A DNA stretch of 64,000 nucleotides, taken from the NCBI RefSeq assembly GCF_003966565.1, contig NZ_AP018718.1:558001-622000 (forward strand), written 5' to 3'. Shown here piece by piece: positions 3,461 through 45,980 of the stretch. Source of the DNA: Sulfuricystis multivorans (GTDB lineage: Bacteria; Pseudomonadota; Gammaproteobacteria; Burkholderiales; Rhodocyclaceae). The notes beneath the pieces were generated by a model. The model saw only the letters and a program-made list of their open reading frames with translations. It was not told the origin of the DNA and did no database searches. Both the position numbers and the translations under genes were made by a program. The stretch's first letter is position 1, and every line of letters begins with the position of its first letter.

Positions 3461-4779
3461 ACGAATTGTTCGAGGCAAAACCCCTTGCCCCTCTGGCCGA
3501 GGCCATGCGGCCGAAAACCCTCGACGAGGTGATCGGCCAGCAGCATCTGCTCGGGCCGGGCAAGCCGCTTAAGCTGGCGTTCGAATCGAAGACGCCGCAT
3601 TCGATGATCCTCTGGGGCCCGCCGGGGGTGGGCAAGACCACGCTGGCGCGGTTGATGGCCGATGCCTTCGATGCCGAATTCATCGCGATCTCCGCGGTGT
3701 TCTCCGGCGTCAGGGACATCCGCGCCGCGGTCGATCAGGCGCAGCTGACGCTGGCGCAGACGGGCCGGCGCACGCTGTTGTTCGTCGATGAGGTGCATCG
3801 CTTCAACAAGGCCCAGCAGGACGCATTTCTGCCCTACGTCGAGCAGGGGCTGCTGACCTTCATCGGTGCGACCACGGAGAACCCATCGTTCGAGGTCAAT
3901 TCGGCGCTGCTCTCGCGCGCCACGGTGTATGTGTTGAAACCCCTCTCGAGCGATGAACTGCGCCAGCTCTGCGAGCGTGCGCGATCGCGCGTCTTTCCCG
4001 AGCTCGAGTTCGCACCGGAGGCGATCGAGCGCATCATCGGTTATGCCGATGGTGATGCGCGGCGGCTCCTCAACGTGCTGGAAACCCTACACACCGCCGC
4101 GCAGGCGAGCGGGTGCCGTCTCATCAGCGCCGAGTTTCTGGAGCAAACGCTCGCTTCCGATCTGCGCCGCTTCGACAAAGGTGGCGATGCGTTCTATGAC
4201 CAGATCTCGGCGCTGCACAAATCGGTGCGCGGCTCGAGCCCTGATGCCGCGCTCTATTGGTTCTGCCGCATGCTCGATGGCGGCGCCGATCCGCTCTACC
4301 TCGCGCGCCGCATCATCCGCATGGCATCGGAAGACATTGGCCTGGCCGACCCGCGTGCGCTCTCGATCGCGCTCGAGGCGACACAGGCCTATGAGCGGCT
4401 CGGTTCGCCCGAAGGTGAACTCGCTCTCGCCAATGCGGTGATTTACATGGCGGTGGCGCCGAAGTCGAACGCCGGCTATGTCGCCTATGGTGCGGCGCGG
4501 AAGTTCGTCGCCAAGGATCAGAGCCGGCCGGTGCCGGAACACCTGCGCAACGCACCGACGAAGCTGATGAGGGAACTCGGTTTCGGCCGCGCATACCGTT
4601 ATGCGCACGACGAGCCGGAAGCCTATGCGGCCGGTGAGAATTATTTCCCCGCAGGCATGCCGAAGGTCGAGTGGTACAAGCCGACGCCGCGGGGACTGGA
4701 ACAGAAGATCGGCGAGAAGCTCAGGCATCTTGCCGCGCTCGATGCGGCCTGGCGCAAGAAACACCGCAACGACGGCTAG
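3457..4779 (+). CDS. rarA: Replication-associated recombination protein A (MgsA/WRNIP1 family AAA ATPase)
   Basis: RarA is a clamp-loader-like AAA+ ATPase that acts at stalled replication forks and single-stranded DNA-duplex junctions. Walker A GPPGVGKTT lies near residue 53 and Walker B LLFVDEVHRFNKAQQDAFLP near 106. The sensor-1 region GATTENPSFEVNSALLSR and the RarA C-terminal tetramerisation region (ALYWFCRMLDGGADPLYLAR, SNAGYVAYGAA) are also present. The length of 440 residues is normal. The start overlaps the lolA stop, and serS follows after 36 bp, matching the conserved ftsK-lolA-rarA-serS order. Confidence 0.95.
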   Translation: MNELFEAKPLAPLAEAMRPKTLDEVIGQQHLLGPGKPLKLAFESKTPHSMILWGPPGVGKTTLARLMADAFDAEFIAISAVFSGVRDIRAAVDQAQLTLAQTGRRTLLFVDEVHRFNKAQQDAFLPYVEQGLLTFIGATTENPSFEVNSALLSRATVYVLKPLSSDELRQLCERARSRVFPELEFAPEAIERIIGYADGDARRLLNVLETLHTAAQASGCRLISAEFLEQTLASDLRRFDKGGDAFYDQISALHKSVRGSSPDAALYWFCRMLDGGADPLYLARRIIRMASEDIGLADPRALSIALEATQAYERLGSPEGELALANAVIYMAVAPKSNAGYVAYGAARKFVAKDQSRPVPEHLRNAPTKLMRELGFGRAYRYAHDEPEAYAAGENYFPAGMPKVEWYKPTPRGLEQKIGEKLRHLAALDAAWRKKHRNDG

Positions 4780-8145: not shown

Positions 8146-10348
8146 TCTTTGCCGCGCCGTGCCGTCCCGCCAGCGCCGACTTTCCGATGTGAGTCGGCGC
8201 CCGGCGGGACGTCCCATTTTCCGCCAGCGCCGACTTTCCGATGTGAGTCGGCGCCCGGCGGGACGTCTCATTTTCCGCCAGCGCCGACTTTCCGATGTGA
8301 GTCGGCGCCCGGCGGGACGTCCCATTTTCCGCCAGCGCCGACTTTCCGATGTGAATCGGCGCCCGGCGGGACGTCTCATTTTCCGCCAGCGCCGACTTTT
8401 CGCGGTGGGCCGGCGGCCGGCGGAGTAATGGTGATTCGCCCGGCTGCCAGGCCGGGACGAGATGCCTTTTGCCATTACCGATCAGATCGGCGCGCCCCAT
8501 GCGTTTCAAGGCTTCGCGTAACAGCGGCCAGTTCTTTGGATCGTGATAGCGTAAGAACGCCTTGTGGAGCCGGCGTTGTTTGAGGCCCCGTGCGACGGCG
8601 ACTTTCTCGCTTGCCGGGTCACGCTTGAGCGGGTTGTTTTCCGTGTGCCACATCGCCGTGGCGAGTGCCAGGGGTGTCGGCAGGAAGGTTTGTACCTGAT
8701 CGAGGCGGAAATCATTGCGCTTCAACCATAGCGCGAGTTCGAGCATATCCTCATCGGTCGTGCCAGGGTGAGCGGCGATGAAGTAGGGGATCAGGTATTG
8801 CTCCTTGCCGGCGGCTTTCGACGCCTGCTCGAATAGGCGCTTGAATTTGTCGTAGGCGCCCATTCCCGGCTTCATCATCTTCGAGAGCGGCCCTTCCTCG
8901 GTGTGCTCCGGCGCGATCTTGAGATAACCGCCGACGTGATGGGTGACCAGTTCCTTCACGTATTCGGGCGAGCGCACCGCGAGGTCGTAACGCAGTCCTG
9001 AACCGATCAGCACTTTTTTTATGCCCGGCACCTGTCGCGCCTTGCGGTAGAGGTGGATCAAGGGGGCATGATCGGTATCGAGGTTCGGGCAGATGTCAGG
9101 ATAGACACAGGAGAGCCGCCGGCAAGCCGCTTCGATCGCCTTGTCCTTGCAGGCCATGCGGTACATGTTGGCGGTTGGCCCGCCCAGGTCGGAAATGATG
9201 CCGGTAAATCCTGGCGTCTTGTCGCGGATCTCCTCGATCTCGCGCAGGATCGATGCTTCCGAGCGGTTCTGGATGATGCGGCCCTCGTGTTCGGTGATCG
9301 AGCAAAAGGTGCAGCCGCCGAAACAGCCGCGCATGATGTTGATCGAGAAACGGATCATCTCCCAGGCGGGTATCCTGGCGTCGCCGTATGCGGGGTGCGG
9401 CGCGCGGGCATAGGGCAGGCCGTAGATGTAGTCCATCTCGGCGGTGGAGAGTGGAATCGGTGGCGGATTGAGCCACAGGTCCCGGTTGCCGTGTCTTTGC
9501 ACCAAAGCCCGAGCGTTGCCAGGATTCGATTCGAGGTGAAAGAGCCGCGAAGCTCTGGCATAGGCGAGTTTGTCGCTCTTCACCGTTTCGTAGTCGGGCA
9601 GGCGCAGGTAGCTGAGATTGCGATCGTCATGAGCGCGGCGCGTGCCGACCTCGCGCCATTCGGGGCTGGGCGTCCAGCCGGCAGGCACCAAGAAAGCAGA
9701 GCCGCGCAGGTCGCGGATGTCCTGAATGGGCGTGCCCTTGGCTAGCCGATGCGCGAGCTCCACCAGCGCCCGTTCGGCATTGCCGTAGAGCAACAGATCA
9801 GCCTTGCTGTCCGCGAGCACGGAGCGCTTGACGGTCTCTGACCAGTAGTCGAAGTGGGCGATGCGCCGCAAGCTGGCCTCGATGCCACCGATCACGATCG
9901 GCACCTCCTTGAACGCTTCGCGCGCCCGCTGGGCATAGACGGTGACGGCGTAATCCGGTCGCTTACCAGGTTCGGCATGCGGCGTATAGGCATCATCGGA
10001 GCGGATCTTGCGGTCGGCGGTGTAGCGATTGACCATCGAATCCATGTTGCCGGCGGTGATGCCAAAGAACAGGTTGGGGCGGCCCAAACGCCGAAAATCC
10101 TCCGCCGAGCGCCAGTCGGGTTGCGCAATGATGCCGACGCGAAAGCCCTGCGCTTCCAGCAGCCGCCCGACCAGCGCCATGCCGAAGCTCGGATGGTCGA
10201 TGTAAGCGTCGCCAGTGACGATGATCACGTCGCAGGAATCCCAGCCGAGCGTTTCCATCTCGGCGCGCGTCATCGGCAGGAAGGGGGCGATGCCGAAGCG
10301 TTTCGCCCAATAGGGACGGTAGGCCGTCAGAGCCTTAGTGGTTTTCAT
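8129..10348 (-). CDS. ygiQ: YgiQ family radical SAM protein with repeat-derived C-terminal tail
   Basis: YgiQ proteins are radical SAM enzymes (UPF0313) of unresolved function. A B12-binding-like N-terminal region carries [20 protein letters not shown] and [19 protein letters not shown]. The radical SAM cluster motif is [11 protein letters not shown] near residue 338, followed by the family signature [33 protein letters not shown] and [16 protein letters not shown] are further family motifs. Residues from about 640 to 739 are not family-like: they are translated tandem copies of the 54-bp palindromic repeat, giving an 18-residue period with KSALAEN(E/G)TSRRAP. The original C-terminus was therefore probably extended by repeat insertion. 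The gene ends convergently over tusE. Confidence 0.92.
8167..8436 (+). repeat. Tandem array of five 54-bp palindromic repeats
   Basis: Units begin at 8167, 8221, 8275, 8329 and 8383 with an exact 54-bp period; the fifth decays after about 20 bases. Each full unit contains two arms, ccgccagcgccgact and agtcggcgcccggcggg, separated by about 10 bases. A unit can therefore fold into a long GC-rich hairpin with a small bulge. Units differ at only a few positions, so the amplification looks recent. The array lies inside the 3' end of ygiQ on the minus strand, where it is open in frame. The same unit recurs at 22732, 32698 and 45477. Confidence 0.9.
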
Positions 10349-15075: not shown

Positions 15076-15106
15076 GTGCCGTCTTGTCAGCGCCGAGTTT
15101 CGGATG
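15076..15106 (+). repeat. Half unit of the 54-bp palindromic repeat between motA and motB
   Basis: The stretch starting gtgccgtcttgtcagcgccg matches the left arm and flank of the 54-bp repeat (gtgccgtcccgccagcgccg) but lacks the right arm. It fills most of the motA-motB spacer. Comparable half units occur on the minus strand at 29050-29075 and 41505-41531. Confidence 0.6.
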
Positions 15107-16102: not shown

Positions 16103-17323
16103 ATGACGCTTCGGCAACGCATCTATGGAGTGTTGGCGGTCCTGGTCGGCGTGACGCTGCTGGCCAACGGCTATTCTTTTGGGATGTTCGTGCGGCTCGC
16201 CGATCAGGCCGGGCAGGCCAACCCGCAGCTCCTTGCCGAGGCGCAGGCGATGCGCAACGGCATGATCGCCGTCATCGTCGTCGCTTCGGCGATAGGGCTG
16301 GGCGCTTTCGTGCATTTGGCGCGGCTCATGCTCGGCTTCCTCGGCGGCGAACCGCAGCAGGTGGCCGGCATCGTCAAGAGTATCGCCGCTGGTGATTTGA
16401 CGACCCGCATCGATCTTGCATCCGATGACCAGGGAAGTCTTCTGGCGGCAATTGCCGGGATGCGCAAGAGTCTGGCCGAGATGGCCGGGCATCTGACGGC
16501 GACGGCTGGGCGCTTGCATGGCGCGGCAAGCGAGCTTGCCGGCGTTGCCACAGAGATGCAAAACAGCGCCCACGACGAGAGTGCCGCGGCAGAAGACACG
16601 ACTGCGGCACTGTCTCGGCTGACGGCAGGAATCGCCGACATCGCTGCTCAGGCAGCCGAGGTCGAGCGTCTCGCGGCGGCGAGTGTCGAGCGTACCCAAG
16701 CCGGCAATGAGAGCCTCTCGCGCATGATCGGCGAATTGACCCAGGCCGAAGGCGCGGTGAGCGAAATGACCGAGACCGCGCGCGAGTTCATCGCCAGCGC
16801 CGCCTCGATTTCCGGTATGACGCGCGAGGTGCGCGACATCGCCGACCAGACCAATCTATTGGCCCTGAACGCGGCGATCGAAGCAGCACGTGCCGGGGAA
16901 CAGGGGCGAGGGTTCGCCGTCGTCGCCGACGAGGTGCGCCGCCTGGCGGAAAAATCTGCCGCCACGGCGAGCGAAATCGATACCGTGACGCACAACCTCG
17001 AACGACTGGCCGCCAAGGTGCGCGAGACGCTCGAAAACGGCCTCGCCGCGCTGGCTACTTCCCAGGAATGTCTCGAAACCGTGGCGATGAGCCTCGGCGA
17101 GGTCAACGCTTCGGTAGGCGAGACGACTGCCGGCATGGGCCGCATCAACGCGGCGGTAGAGGTTCAGAGCCGGGCCAGCAGGGAGATCAGCGAGAACGTC
17201 GAAAGGATCGCCCGGCTGGCCAAGGCGGGGGATGCCAGCACCGGCAGGATGGCCGAAGCCGCGCGCCAGCTCGAAAGCCTGGCCGTCGAACTCGAGGCGA
17301 GCCTGCATCGTTTCAAGGTTTAA
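16103..17323 (+). CDS. Methyl-accepting chemotaxis protein with almost no periplasmic domain
   Basis: This is a 406-residue inner-membrane chemoreceptor. Two hydrophobic segments (about 6-28 and 50-72) are separated by only about 20 residues, so there is no room for a periplasmic ligand-binding domain. A HAMP domain follows ([20 protein letters not shown]). The conserved signalling hairpin tip is [20 protein letters not shown] with [16 protein letters not shown] after it. I chose the ATG at 16103 because of the strong ribosome site aggaggacagggg. The stop codon overlaps an inverted-repeat element. It probably senses an internal or membrane-related signal such as energy state, but this is inference. 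Confidence 0.92.
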
Positions 17324-17491
17324 CCCAGATTGTCCATTGGAACACGAGCGGGTTTCGAAGGCGAGGGCGAGCCAGATTTGCGTCCCCGCGACGATGCCGC
17401 CCGCAGCCCGGAAGCCGCCGTGTAGGGCGATGAAATGACCGTATCGAATGCTCATGGCGCATCAGCCCGCTCTCAATGGATAATCTGGGTT
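17322..17491 (+). repeat. Inverted-repeat-bounded intergenic element, copy 2
   Basis: This 170-bp element has the same ends as the copy at 2682-2804: aacccagattgtccattgg on the left and caatggataatctgggtt on the right. The left end again starts inside the stop codon of the upstream gene, here TAA of the chemoreceptor. The right half shares the 29-base core from the cgtatcgaatgctcatggcg motif to the terminal arm with copy 1. The left half carries about 50 extra bases, related in reverse orientation to the element at 46895-47088. It separates the motB-chemoreceptor unit from cheV. Confidence 0.7.
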
Positions 17492-22708: not shown

Positions 22709-22731
22709 GGCCGATGACACGCGGTGCCGTC

Positions 22732-22839
22732 CCGCCAGCGCCGACTATTCGAAGCGAGTCGGCGCCCGGCGGGACGTCTCATTTTCCGCCAGCGCCGACT
22801 TTCCGAAGCGAGTCGGCGTCCGGCGGGGTGTCGCTGCTT
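22732..22839 (+). repeat. Two tandem 54-bp palindromic repeats between cheA and the mshQ-like gene
   Basis: Two units start at 22732 and 22786 with the same 54-bp spacing and arms as the array at 8167. Flanking ggtgccgt precedes the first. They fill most of the 164-bp spacer after cheA. An open frame in phase with the downstream gene runs through both, encoding the same PPAPT(F/I)[10 protein letters not shown] peptide as in FlhF. The true start of the downstream gene is more likely after the repeats, at 22873. Confidence 0.85.
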
Positions 22840-22872
22840 TGCCGGTGTCGTCTGACAAGGCACCAGAAACCG

Positions 22873-28626: not shown

Positions 28627-29051
28627 AGATCCCGCCACGGAAACCGGATGGCTTCGCGATCGTCTCGGCGATCTTCATCCTCGTCGTGCTGGCGGTGCTT
28701 GGCGCCTTCATCCTCAACATCTCGGCGCAACAGCAGATCGGTTCGGCGCTCGACGTGCAGGGCACGCGTGCTTATCAGGCGGCCCGCGCCGGCATCGAAT
28801 GGGGGCTGTATCAGCAACTGCAGGGCGGCGTGGCCTGCCCGGCGGGCAGTTTCAATCCGCCGGCGGCAACGCTTTCCGAATTCACCGTCAGCGTGACTTG
28901 CGTCGCGACGGCCGATCCGGGCGGCCACGGCGGGCCGACGGTGCGCGTGCTGACCGCCACCGCCTGCAACCAGCCGAATGCCGGTGACTGCCCGAATACG
29001 GTCGATCCGGGTTCGCACTACGTCGAGCGGCGCATTCAGGTCACCTTCTGA
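28623..29051 (+). CDS. MshP-like pilus assembly protein (PilX type)
   Basis: This 142-residue protein has an N-terminal hydrophobic helix (DGFAIVSAIFILVVLAVLGA) and the ARAGIEWGLYQ segment found in MshP and PilX-like proteins. It lacks the usual Glu5 context and may use a non-classical leader. A cysteine-containing C-terminal region (ATACNQPNAGDC) could form a disulfide. It is the last gene of the five-gene MSHA-like operon; no pilus ATPase, major pilin or secretin is in the window. Confidence 0.78.
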   Translation: MKIPPRKPDGFAIVSAIFILVVLAVLGAFILNISAQQQIGSALDVQGTRAYQAARAGIEWGLYQQLQGGVACPAGSFNPPAATLSEFTVSVTCVATADPGGHGGPTVRVLTATACNQPNAGDCPNTVDPGSHYVERRIQVTF

Positions 29052-29075
29052 AACCCGGCGCTGGCGAGACGACAC
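29050..29075 (-). repeat. Half unit of the 54-bp palindromic repeat between mshP-like gene and flhB
   Basis: Read on the minus strand this is gtgtcgtctcgccagcgccg followed by ggtttc, matching the left arm of the 54-bp repeat with several changes. It begins at the mshP-like stop codon. Only one arm is present. Confidence 0.5.
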
Positions 29076-32445: not shown

Positions 32446-34203
32446 ATGACGGTGAGACGCTTCTTCGGAGAAACCGCGCGCGAGGCGCTGCGCAAGGTCA
32501 AGGCGGCGCTGGGGCCGGAGGCGATCGTGATCTCGAACAAGGCGGTGCCCGGCGGCGTCGAAATCATGGCGATGTCGGCCGACAGCCTCGCGGCACTGCA
32601 GGCGGAAAGCGCGCCGTCCGCTCCATCGGCCTTAGCGTCCAAGGCTTCTGCGACGGCAAGCGCAGCGCTCGAGCCGCGCGCGCGGGGGGGTGCCGTCCCG
32701 CCAGCGCCGACTTTCCGAAGTGAGTCGGCGCCCGGCGGGACGTCCAGCATTCCGCCAGCGCCGACTTTCCGAAGTGAGTCGGCGCCCGGCGGGACGTCCA
32801 GCATTCCGCCAGCGCCGACTTTTCGAAGTGAGTCGGCGCCCGGCGGGACGTCCAATTCTCCGCCAGCGTCGAGTTTGGTCACCGATCCCTCGCCCGTCAT
32901 TTGCACGCCGGCGCAGGTCAGCGAAACGACGGGGCGCAAGGATGCTGCAACGACGGATGAGGACGAGGGCGACGACTACACGGTCATGCTCTCGGCGAAG
33001 GCGCGCGCGCCGCACGCCGTGCATGCCTGGCAACCCTGGCAGCCGCCACGCCACGAAACGCTTGCGGCGGCGCCGGCCGAAAGGCCGAAGCTTCGCCCCC
33101 TGCCGCCGCGCCAGCGTGCGCCAGAGGGAATGCCCGCCGAAGAAGAGCAAGTCGCCGCCGCGCTGGCCCAGGCGAGCGCAACGGCCGGCGCTCAGAACGG
33201 CGCTGCCACCAGTGCCGGCGGTACGCTGCCTGGCGGCGATCAGCAGGTCCAGCAGCTGATGGACGAAATGCGCGCGATCAAATCCTTGCTTGAACGCCAG
33301 CTCGCCGGCTTCGCCTGGGGCGACTTGACGCGCCATGCGCCGGTGCGTGCGCAACTGCTGGGCGAAATGCTCGAAGCCGGCTTTTCCGGCGAGCTCGCGC
33401 GCCGTCTGGTCGAGGAGCTGCCCGACAGTCTGGACGTCTCGGAAGGGCGTAAATGGCTGAGCGCCGCGGTCAACCGGCGGCTACGCACCTTGTCCAGCGA
33501 CAACGATCTGATCGACCAGGGCGGCGTGTTCGCGCTGGTCGGCCCGACCGGCGTCGGCAAGACGACGACGACGGCGAAGCTCGCCGCGCGTTGCGTGGTG
33601 CGCTACGGCGCCGACAAGCTGGCGCTGCTCACCACCGACGGCTACCGGATCGGCGCCCATGAGCAACTGCGCATCTATGGCCGCATCCTCGGCGTGCCGG
33701 TGCATGTGGTGCGCGACAGCGAAGACCTGCGCCGCATGCTCGCCGAGCTTACCGGCAAGCACATGGTGCTCATCGATACCGTCGGCATGAGCCAGCGCGA
33801 CCGCATGGTCGCCGAGCAGGCGGCGATGCTGATGCGTGCCGGCGACGTCAAGCGCCTGTTGCTGCTCAATGCCACCAGCCGCGGCGATACGCTCGACGAC
33901 GTGATCAAGAGCTATGCCGGCGAGGACATTGCCGGTTGCATCCTCTCGAAGGTGGATGAGGCGGCGGCGCTGGCGCCGGCGCTCGATGCCGTGGTGCGCC
34001 ACGGCCTGCTGCTCACCTACATCGCCAACGGCCAGCGCGTGCCGGAGGATCTGCATCTGCCCAACCGCACCTATCTGCTGCACCGTGCCTTCAAGCTGCC
34101 GCCGCCGGGCTCGGTGCATCGGCTGCGCAACGACGAGTTCGGGCTGATCATGCCGACACCGAGCGAAAGCCGCGCTGCCACCCGGGGAGCGGTCCTTGTC
34201 TGA
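32446..34203 (+). CDS. flhF: Flagellar SRP-type GTPase FlhF with palindromic-repeat peptides in its linker
   Basis: FlhF directs the site and number of polar flagella. The N-terminal B domain starts MTVRRFFGETAREALRKVK. The NG GTPase domain begins near residue 285 and contains the P loop LVGPTGVGKTTTTAKLAAR, LLTTDGYRIGAHEQLRIYG and IDTVGMSQRD. Between them lies an unusually long low-complexity linker (about 60-280) that includes three complete and one partial 18-residue repeats, [18 protein letters not shown], encoded by the 54-bp palindromic element in frame. The protein reaches 585 residues, longer than the usual 400-500. The flhG-like gene overlaps its end by eight bases. Confidence 0.94.
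   Translation: MTVRRFFGETAREALRKVKAALGPEAIVISNKAVPGGVEIMAMSADSLAALQAESAPSAPSALASKASATASAALEPRARGGAVPPAPTFRSESAPGGTSSIPPAPTFRSESAPGGTSSIPPAPTFRSESAPGGTSNSPPASSLVTDPSPVICTPAQVSETTGRKDAATTDEDEGDDYTVMLSAKARAPHAVHAWQPWQPPRHETLAAAPAERPKLRPLPPRQRAPEGMPAEEEQVAAALAQASATAGAQNGAATSAGGTLPGGDQQVQQLMDEMRAIKSLLERQLAGFAWGDLTRHAPVRAQLLGEMLEAGFSGELARRLVEELPDSLDVSEGRKWLSAAVNRRLRTLSSDNDLIDQGGVFALVGPTGVGKTTTTAKLAARCVVRYGADKLALLTTDGYRIGAHEQLRIYGRILGVPVHVVRDSEDLRRMLAELTGKHMVLIDTVGMSQRDRMVAEQAAMLMRAGDVKRLLLLNATSRGDTLDDVIKSYAGEDIAGCILSKVDEAAALAPALDAVVRHGLLLTYIANGQRVPEDLHLPNRTYLLHRAFKLPPPGSVHRLRNDEFGLIMPTPSESRAATRGAVLV
32698..32880 (+). repeat. 54-bp palindromic repeat array inside flhF
   Basis: Units start at 32698, 32752 and 32806, and a fourth, decayed unit at 32860, with the exact 54-bp period. 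The preceding bases ggtgccgt match the flank of the intergenic copies. The phase relative to flhF puts one unit at exactly 18 codons starting at codon 85. The units differ from one another at very few positions, indicating recent expansion within the gene. Confidence 0.9.
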
Positions 34204-36885: not shown

Positions 36886-37242
36886 TCAAGCCTTGCCGAG
36901 CGAATGACTGACGCCGCCCTGCCGCGGTTGTCCGTCGCGGCCGTAGACGGTGGCATTGTCGGCGGCCGCGCGTAGCACGTTCAGCGCCTGCTGGTTGCGT
37001 TGCAGGTGTAGCGCGATCAGCTTGCCATTGGTTTCGTTGAGCTCGCGCGCCTCGGTGGCGAGCCCGCGCAATGCTTCGGCCTCGGCAGGGGAAATTCCAT
37101 TGAGCCGTTCCGCCAGCGCCGATTTTTCCGGAATCAGCGCCGCGAGCGCCTCGATGTCGCCTTTGATCAGAGCGGCCTGCTCACGGCGCAGCAGGTCGAT
37201 GAAGACCCGCAGCGTTTCCGCGAAGGATTGTTCCGTCGTCAT
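36886..37242 (-). CDS. flgN: Flagellar chaperone FlgN
   Basis: FlgN is the export chaperone for the hook-filament junction proteins FlgK and FlgL. This is a 118-residue helical protein with FAETLRVFIDLLRREQAALI at the N-terminus and LNETNGKLIALHLQRNQQAL in the middle, as in the family. It overlaps flgM by four bases, giving the usual flgM-flgN pair. A segment encoding PEKSALAERL resembles the translated palindromic repeat, perhaps by chance. Confidence 0.88.
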   Translation of the reverse strand: MTTEQSFAETLRVFIDLLRREQAALIKGDIEALAALIPEKSALAERLNGISPAEAEALRGLATEARELNETNGKLIALHLQRNQQALNVLRAAADNATVYGRDGQPRQGGVSHSLGKA

Positions 37243-41504: not shown

Positions 41505-41531
41505 CGAAACTCGGCGCTGACGGGACGGCAC
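41505..41531 (-). repeat. Half unit of the 54-bp palindromic repeat between flgE and flgF
   Basis: On the minus strand the sequence is gtgccgtcccgtcagcgccg then agtttcg, matching the left arm plus flank of the repeat almost exactly. It occupies nearly all of the 28-bp flgE-flgF spacer and overlaps the likely flgF ribosome site region. Confidence 0.65.
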
Positions 41532-44999: not shown

Positions 45000-45980
45000 A
45001 TGAATTCCGCGACGGCGATCCCTTCCGTATTCGATGCCCAGGCACTGACTGCTGTCAAAAGTGGCCTGCGCAAGGACGATCCCAAAGCGCTCAAAGCCGC
45101 TGCGCAGCAGTTCGAGGCGCTGTTTCTACAGATGGTGATGAAATCGATGCGCGCCGCAGTGCCGCAGGACGGACCGTTCGACAGCGACCAGACGCGTTTC
45201 TATCAAGAGCTGCTCGACGCCCAGCTTGTGCAGGTGATGGCGGCGAAAGGCGGCACTGGACTTGCGGCACTGATCGAACGTCAGCTCAGCCCCGCGGCAA
45301 GCCCAACTGCGCCGCTTGGCGAGGCCGGCATGCCGCTTGCGCCGCAGGCAAGACCAATGCCTCTAGCCCCCCAGCGCGGTTTTCCACTGCTTCCGCCGAT
45401 TGCGCCCACACGGGCATTGCCCCTTTCGGGCAGCCCGCTGCGTCCGGCGGCGAATGAGGGCATGAGAAGCGCGGTTCCCCAGCCGACGACGCGAAGCGAG
45501 TCGGCGCCCGGCGGGACGTCGCCCATTCCGCCAGCATCCGCTGCCTTCGTCTCGGACATTTGGCCCTATGCGGTCGAGGCGGGTAGAACGATCGGCATCC
45601 CCCCGCAGTTCATCGTCGCCCATGCGGCGCTGGAAAGTGGCTGGGGGCGCGCCATGCCGCGCCTTCCCGACGGTCGGCCGAGCTACAACCTGTTCGGCAT
45701 CAAGGCCGGCGGCCAGTGGCAAGGGCCGGTCGTCGAAGCTGTCACGACCGAATACATCGACGGCGCGCCGCAAAGGCGCAGCGAACGCTTCCGCGCCTAC
45801 GGCTCCTATGCCGAAGCCTTCGCCGATTACGCCCAATTGCTCGCCGGCGCGCCGCGCTATGGCCATGTGCTTGGCAGCGTAAGCCCCGTCGGCTTCGCGC
45901 AGGGCTTGCAACGCGCCGGCTATGCCAGCGATCCGGACTATGCCAGCAAATTGCTCCGCGTCATGCGCGTCTTGAGTTGA
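45000..45980 (+). CDS. flgJ: Peptidoglycan hydrolase and rod cap FlgJ with a repeat peptide in the linker
   Basis: FlgJ caps the growing rod and cuts the peptidoglycan. Residues 1-95 form the rod-scaffold domain (LKAAAQQFEALFLQMVMKSM). A Pro/Ala-rich linker (about 98-180) contains [12 protein letters not shown], the peptide encoded by the 54-bp palindromic repeat, in the same phase as in FlhF. Residues about 182-326 are the glucosaminidase domain: FIVAHAALESGWG with likely catalytic Glu212, YNLFGIKAGGQW and VTTEYIDGAPQRRSERFRAY. The length of 326 residues is typical. The usual next genes flgKL are 15 kb away. Confidence 0.93.
   Translation: MNSATAIPSVFDAQALTAVKSGLRKDDPKALKAAAQQFEALFLQMVMKSMRAAVPQDGPFDSDQTRFYQELLDAQLVQVMAAKGGTGLAALIERQLSPAASPTAPLGEAGMPLAPQARPMPLAPQRGFPLLPPIAPTRALPLSGSPLRPAANEGMRSAVPQPTTRSESAPGGTSPIPPASAAFVSDIWPYAVEAGRTIGIPPQFIVAHAALESGWGRAMPRLPDGRPSYNLFGIKAGGQWQGPVVEAVTTEYIDGAPQRRSERFRAYGSYAEAFADYAQLLAGAPRYGHVLGSVSPVGFAQGLQRAGYASDPDYASKLLRVMRVLS
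45477..45530 (+). repeat. Single 54-bp palindromic repeat unit inside flgJ
   Basis: The right arm and flank (agtcggcgcccggcgggacgt) match exactly; the left arm is eroded and one codon shorter (ccccagccgacgac). The unit is followed by attccgccagcatcc, the start of a second, decayed unit. It is in frame with flgJ and encodes the same [10 protein letters not shown] peptide as in FlhF. Confidence 0.75.

Follow-up and report, generated by a model that had tools for sequence, protein, structure and literature searches.

A genome-wide, putatively uptake-signal-like motif in Rhodocyclaceae and its extension by in-frame hairpin units in flhF and other genes

The genome from which the window was taken (G000; the window is the whole stretch of 64,000 nucleotides that was analysed) carries 385 copies of a bipartite motif of 24-25 bp, TGCCGTC-YYGY-CAGCGCCGA-N-TTT, whose four-base centre is mostly YYGY; 203 copies are in forward and 182 in reverse orientation, and a control with the reversed pattern gave 0. 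The interpretation that we prefer, at a rough probability of 55%, is that the motif is a tag resembling DNA uptake signals and that some of its copies have been extended by 54-bp hairpin units through recombination and slippage. At the flhF locus the motif is, by comparison with orthologues, the older component, and the hairpin units appear to have been added inside it.

The flhF array is composed as follows.

32446..34203, plus strand: flhF reading frame, 585 amino acids, host gene of the array
32690..32714, plus strand: head of the array, a complete 25-bp motif GTGCCGTCCCGCCAGCGCCGACTTT, apparently the older part
32698..32751, plus strand: hairpin unit 1, 54 bp, 18 codons
32752..32805, plus strand: hairpin unit 2, 54 bp
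32806..32859, plus strand: hairpin unit 3, 54 bp, with differing loop and linker
32860..32876, plus strand: closing copy of 17 bp, the 3' part of the motif (CCGCCAGCGTCGAGTTT), at the end of the array

We take the host gene to encode FlhF, the name used in a preliminary description of this DNA, which is consistent with the gene order; residues 361-548 of its product match an SRP54-type GTPase domain profile (E 2.3e-28). Head, three units and 17-bp tail copy are all in frame, which confirms the earlier statement that flhF holds three 54-bp units and a partial copy. Within each unit, CCGCCAGCGCCGACTTT is followed by a loop, then by the inverted near-copy AGTCGGCGCCCGGCGGGACG and finally by a short linker, so that the 3' part of the motif is joined to an inverted near-copy of the motif. 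Translation gives an identical 18-residue peptide for units 1 and 2 and a differing 18-residue peptide for unit 3. The RNA fold of 32680-32880 has a z of -7.9, and the 28-bp hairpin core has nine matches in the window at up to three mismatches as compared with 0 in 100 shuffles.

Further copies of the motif or the unit in the window are the following.

8159..8399, plus strand: array of a head and four units; two units at the corresponding place in the relative G017
22724..22847, plus strand: array made of a head and a full unit, with a second unit that is truncated; between called genes
45482..45535, plus strand: degenerate unit without head, 87% identity, 36 bits with the covariance model
4113..4137, plus strand: motif without hairpin in a RarA-like gene (GCRLISAEF), ungapped against motif-free relatives
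15076..15100, plus strand: motif without hairpin between called genes; a hairpin unit at the corresponding place in G017
29051..29075, minus strand: motif without hairpin, two mismatches, at a gene end; present in G017 too
37102..37126, plus strand: motif without hairpin, two mismatches, within a called gene of the minus strand
41507..41531, minus strand: motif without hairpin; it lies in a gap of 28 bp that separates two genes

Genes of the window were called with a simple purpose-made gene finder, and by these calls the unit at 22732 is intergenic, as had been stated. Besides this unit and flhF, the only copies noted before, the window holds the 8159-8399 array, the unit at 45482 and the heads at 4113, 15076 and 41507 (minus strand). 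The RarA-like gene matches AAA ATPase and RarA models below their curated cut-offs. The genes on either side of 41507..41531 are presumably flagellar genes; by eye, the motif was seen at the same junction in contigs of five of nine relatives (G017, G009, G001, G002 and G006), while the neighbouring bases differ between them. A second dispersed repeat is present in the window at 2674-2787 and 17314-17473, with parts AACCCAGATTGTCCATT and ATCGAATGCTCATGGCGCATCAGCCCG. In 464 kb, 10-mers from the first part are seen 15-19 times over both strands, where fewer than one would be expected.

A logo of 76 motif copies (up to three mismatches), taken from a 464-kb chromosomal sample whose stretches were in part picked around known copies, is sharply delimited, its flanks being flat. 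The relative G017 carries 492 copies, again with 0 for the reversed pattern. In a search of 61 genomes, 18 of the 19 genomes of the genus (own included) had 70-558 copies and G005 had none, two genomes of other genera had 100 and 330, and the remaining 40 had 0-4. A survey of 199 genomes of the family, with backward controls of 0-2 and a draw that did not include G005, gave at least 79 copies in each member drawn of genera g1, g2, g9, g62, g70 and g88, 25 in one g47 genome and 0-12 in all others; the motif is thus abundant in five genera besides its own (g2, g9, g62, g70 and g88). When over-represented 10-mers were sought in 198,541 bases of G005, the best score was 7.1, compared to 23.9 for the motif 10-mers of G000.

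The motif occurs inside and outside genes and about equally on both strands. A set of 164 kb, made up of the window plus five stretches taken at round coordinates, contains 20 copies, of which 11 overlap called genes, or 12 when flhF is included, although called genes cover 91.5% of the bases; intergenic copies are therefore over-represented, with the reservation that the gene call at the 8159 copy is possibly wrong. Even spacing was considered as a signature of uptake and was rejected: the spacing of the 100 listed forward copies (of 203) is random, with a CV of 1.02 against a random mean of 0.99. Several motif-poor genomes have copies within a few to about 40 kb of one another (G097 C104 and C66, G171 C148, G096 C50, G123 C1:1461266-1502266; parts in L261-L264), and this clustering suggests import of motif-rich DNA.

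Comparison of orthologous genes indicates how the motif came to be where it is. In PEPCK, where it encodes KVGARETA, nine genomes, motif-bearing or not, align without gap across the site, which is also ungapped against three solved structures among the matches listed; the RarA proteins of nine genomes likewise align ungapped across the motif. In these two proteins the motif replaces sequence and protein length is kept, so that the motif can arise in place. Motif-bearing TrpC of G006 and G016 is also of the same length as motif-free TrpC of G005 and G028, and KsgA differs by one residue from solved structures among the matches listed. At other sites lengths change: TrpC of three other species has four additional residues at the motif, MurA has seven more than G028 and 0 more than G005, IspH has three more than G028, and the motif-bearing loops of RuvA and KsgA are variable in length, so that small insertions are possible at the MurA, IspH, TrpC, RuvA and KsgA sites. 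NCBIfam cut-offs were passed by IspH, RuvA, MurA, TrpC, KsgA, PEPCK and ComEC; the helicase discussed below and RarA fell below theirs. In ksgA of G013 (L193), about 30 extra residues of a sequence unlike the motif adjoin it.

Across species the motif is retained at matching positions within genes. In flhF it is present (up to three mismatches) in 13 of 17 orthologues of the genus, always in one and the same codon phase; G009 and G015 have only its 3' half, and G007 and G005 nothing recognisable. This comparison omits G018, in which the N-terminus is on another contig, and G011, in which no FlhF orthologue was found. In G015 the motif position reads GAVPVTPAQAGVAPTF (L049), with the 3' half alone kept, as if another short sequence had entered. 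The FlhF linker contains three units in G000, two in G006 and none in 15 of the 17. The preliminary description had regarded the whole repeat as an inserted palindrome. A 54-bp unit is indeed translated in frame and missing from 15 of 17 linkers, but the first eight codons (AVPPAPTF) belong to the motif common to the 13 orthologues and would not be part of the insertion. Its alternative, an ancient protein repeat with diverged codons, does not describe the locus either: the codons CCA GCG CCG ACT are kept in nine of 17 orthologues and the units are confined to two. With the motif in 13 and units in two of 17 genes, the repeat fits neither of these two descriptions.

Hairpin units were found in four of the 61 genomes, all of the own genus (G000, 48 matches; G003, 15; G006, 9; G017, 56; up to three mismatches). 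In 14 of the 19 genus genomes the motif is present and the hairpin pattern unmatched, which implies that the role of the motif, whatever it is, does not require the hairpin. A covariance model located about 39 places in G000 at E <= 1e-4, all chromosomal; this figure was merged by hand from 150 scored candidates out of 3606 and includes at least one place (1403275) that on inspection had no unit. Units are 51-57 bp long and often in tandem, and 100 of 112 measured are exactly 54 bp (G000, G017 and a few from G003, G006 and SKW65, with orthologous places unmerged). Of 116 units, 113 have a Watson-Crick pair at the variable position of the stem (C-G 102, G-C 7, T-A 2, A-T 2), as compared with a mean of 93 and a maximum of 99 in 2000 shuffles, and hence the hairpin stems co-vary.

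All 36 units that passed an in-gene test are multiples of three, as are 66 of the 76 others. The test is conservative; it misses trpC of G017 and, in its first version, left flhF uncertain on account of low-scoring linker codons; flhF was placed as in-gene from its reading frame and the FlhF linker comparison. The proposal made earlier, that unit length and open frames on both strands reflect selection for tolerance inside genes, is favoured only weakly by these counts. Frames are open on both strands in the flhF array, but units in general are little above ordinary window DNA in this respect, with a mean of 4.67 of six frames open over 100 full 54-bp units against 4.27 for 5000 random 54-mers of the window and all six open in 15 of 100 against 10%.

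Relatives carry several of the motif sites unit-free. One unit is present in TrpC of G000 and G017 (two of nine genomes) and in none of five other motif-bearing relatives, and alignment to structure 3tsm leaves an 18-residue gap at the unit. MurA has two units in G000 and G017 and none in the other seven of nine genomes, and IspH has one unit in G000 only (one of nine). In a UvrD-type helicase one unit is found in G000 and G017 (two of nine), and G003, G013, G006, G004 and G016 carry the motif without it. A protein that we take to be NnrS-like, for which NCBIfam gave no family at E <= 1e-10, has two units in G000, one in G017 and G003 and none in four of seven genomes. Unit number therefore varies between species at a single site, and the unit occurs in three reading frames in unrelated proteins as well as between genes. 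The idea of insertion that was put forward for flhF thus extends, with one or two units each, to TrpC, MurA, IspH, the UvrD-type helicase and the NnrS-like protein, and the hairpin units are, as judged by these alignments, later in-frame insertions inside motif sites. Some of the unit-bearing genes are usually regarded as essential.

In 55 arrays of a single unit, the first motif copy equals the inverted arm in 53 and the last copy in 42, while the last copy differs from the first at N in 13; in the TrpC array the last copy has T, like the unit-free G006. Since the arm matches the first copy and the last copy often differs, the inserted piece would comprise copy, inverted arm and linker, and it is best seen as having been placed before the part of the motif already resident.

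The motif also exists in variants. G016 carries a genome-wide dialect with the form GCCGCC-YYGC-CRGCGCCGAGTTT; a search for the C variant (up to one mismatch) gave 367 copies in G016, compared with 0-61 in each of the 18 remaining genus genomes, and the change is repeated at the corresponding TrpC, MurA, KsgA and RuvA sites. The base before GCCGTC (or its variant) is C in all ten copies present in L265-L268, stretches of 20 kb from four other genera, and T in 66 of 76 copies of G000. In 80,001 of 251,963 bases of plasmid there were 0 motifs at up to two mismatches and one at three, to be compared with 68 at up to two mismatches in the 464-kb chromosomal sample chosen in part around known copies. 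One plasmid stretch matches an Azospira plasmid, with 84% over 67%.

High copy number, origin in place, presence on both strands, dialects and absence at up to two mismatches from the sampled plasmid stretches are marks of uptake signals, and with hundreds of copies the putative tag displays them all. The DNA-import machinery would recognise the tag, incoming homologous DNA that is tagged would be favoured, and the tag would accumulate. Recombination between a site and some other motif copy, for which the tag supplies the homology, might bring in the first unit at each site, and arrays would then grow or shrink through slippage; this succession is the route of unit spread that we favour. FlhF, MurA, IspH and TrpC would tolerate 18n extra residues, presumably since these residues fall in loops or linkers where the tag was tolerated before. 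Against a role in uptake speak the density of about 150 copies per Mb, which is far under that of the Neisseria DUS, and the motif being longer than a DUS. ComEC was tried as a discriminating gene and rejected, being present almost everywhere: its family is found in 18 of the 19 genus genomes, the motif-free G005 included, and is equally common in motif-free relatives (38 of 41 genomes, again including G005). Its presence therefore does not discriminate, and it supports competence in general and not a link to the motif. The comEC of G000 itself bears a motif copy (G000:C1:1483022, L104).

The strongest competitor as regards the units, which we nonetheless think rather unlikely, is a non-autonomous mobile element of the REPIN, MITE or RPE kind that targets the motif. 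REPIN/RAYT, BIME and MITE are short inverted repeats dispersed in genomes, and the present units resemble them in this; the scatter of one consensus unit over some 39 places in G000, the co-varying stem and the differences between relatives in presence and number at one site would all be expected of such an element. They are unlike these classes in that many copies lie in genes and that a search of the unit-bearing species (G000, G003, G006 and G017) for the Y1 (RAYT-type) transposase family alone (PF01797) gave no match; five of the 19 genus genomes have one. A RAYT/REPIN origin was rejected for this reason. The agreement of first copy and arm together with the frequent difference of the last copy is explained by recombination, but a mobile unit would explain it too.

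Unlikely, and a shade more so, is that the motif serves some other DNA-handling system (a recombination hotspot, segregation or a nucleoid protein) as a binding site spread over the whole chromosome, with hairpins as a by-product. Its two halves, degenerate centre and information-rich core are like the site of a DNA-binding dimer, and the near-equal distribution over both strands and the lack of copies at up to two mismatches in the sampled plasmid stretches would suit this as well. Yet no strand bias like that of Chi or FtsK sites was seen, as 100 of the 203 forward copies are found in the first 1.33 Mb of a chromosome of 2.56 Mb, a check made without a located origin and assuming that the 100 listed forward places are the first by position; and the clusters in otherwise nearly motif-free genomes point to transfer. 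An ordinary protein repeat, in which a Pro/Ala-rich linker peptide of FlhF was duplicated under protein-level selection, would account for an array in a variable linker whose first two 71-base copies are identical. It is contradicted by the units between genes and in three frames of unrelated proteins, and we consider it very improbable.

The motif and its units can be compared with known systems. PMC3630211 describes roughly 1900 DUS in 2.2-2.3 Mb of Neisseria, and for Neisseriaceae dialects, inverted pairs, overlapping dyad pairs (Simonsiella) and positions inside and outside genes. The present motif is similar in its many copies within and outside genes, its dialects and its inverted pairs as stem-loops, and GCCGTC is common to both, probably by chance. 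It differs in being bipartite with 24-25 bp instead of 10-12 bp, in having fewer copies and in belonging to Rhodocyclaceae, and its inverted form, unlike DUS pairs, is amplified into tandem arrays of 54-bp units that are in frame inside genes. The USS of Pasteurellaceae are likewise high-copy and genome-wide, but unrelated in sequence and lineage; PMC5031613 names Pasteurellaceae and Neisseriaceae as the families with uptake tags. The likeness to Rickettsia palindromic elements proposed in the preliminary description holds insofar as a palindrome is translated in frame in unrelated genes (here flhF, trpC, murA, ispH and the UvrD-type helicase). It does not hold for size, RPEs being about 150 bp, many of them in frame inside genes, in PMC10969869, as compared to units of 51-57 bp that are often tandem and set in a pre-existing motif. 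A literature search that was thin on subscription papers returned no paper on the letters of the motif, nor, with subscription literature little covered, on DNA uptake sequences for Rhodocyclaceae, Betaproteobacteria/Rhodocyclales or Dechloromonas; the papers found for uptake sequence and Azoarcus concern, by title, Neisseria, Haemophilus or genomic islands.

We propose tentatively, at somewhat less than even odds, that Rhodocyclaceae may be a third independent lineage with uptake signals, with dialects of its own, in some species of which inverted signal pairs have turned into coding foldbacks of 54 bp that propagate themselves from one tag to the next and lengthen housekeeping proteins by 18n residues. 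A putative tag of 24 bp that forms dialects and arises in place would, in an environmental family, add a third system where a receptor could be sought and where the spread of such tags through biased uptake could be put to the test. The coding hairpins would represent a route from a DNA-level signal to in-frame peptides in housekeeping enzymes, and the unit arrays, whose unit number ranges from 0 to 4 and differs among related species at a single place, may serve as a natural series for how repeats start and grow.
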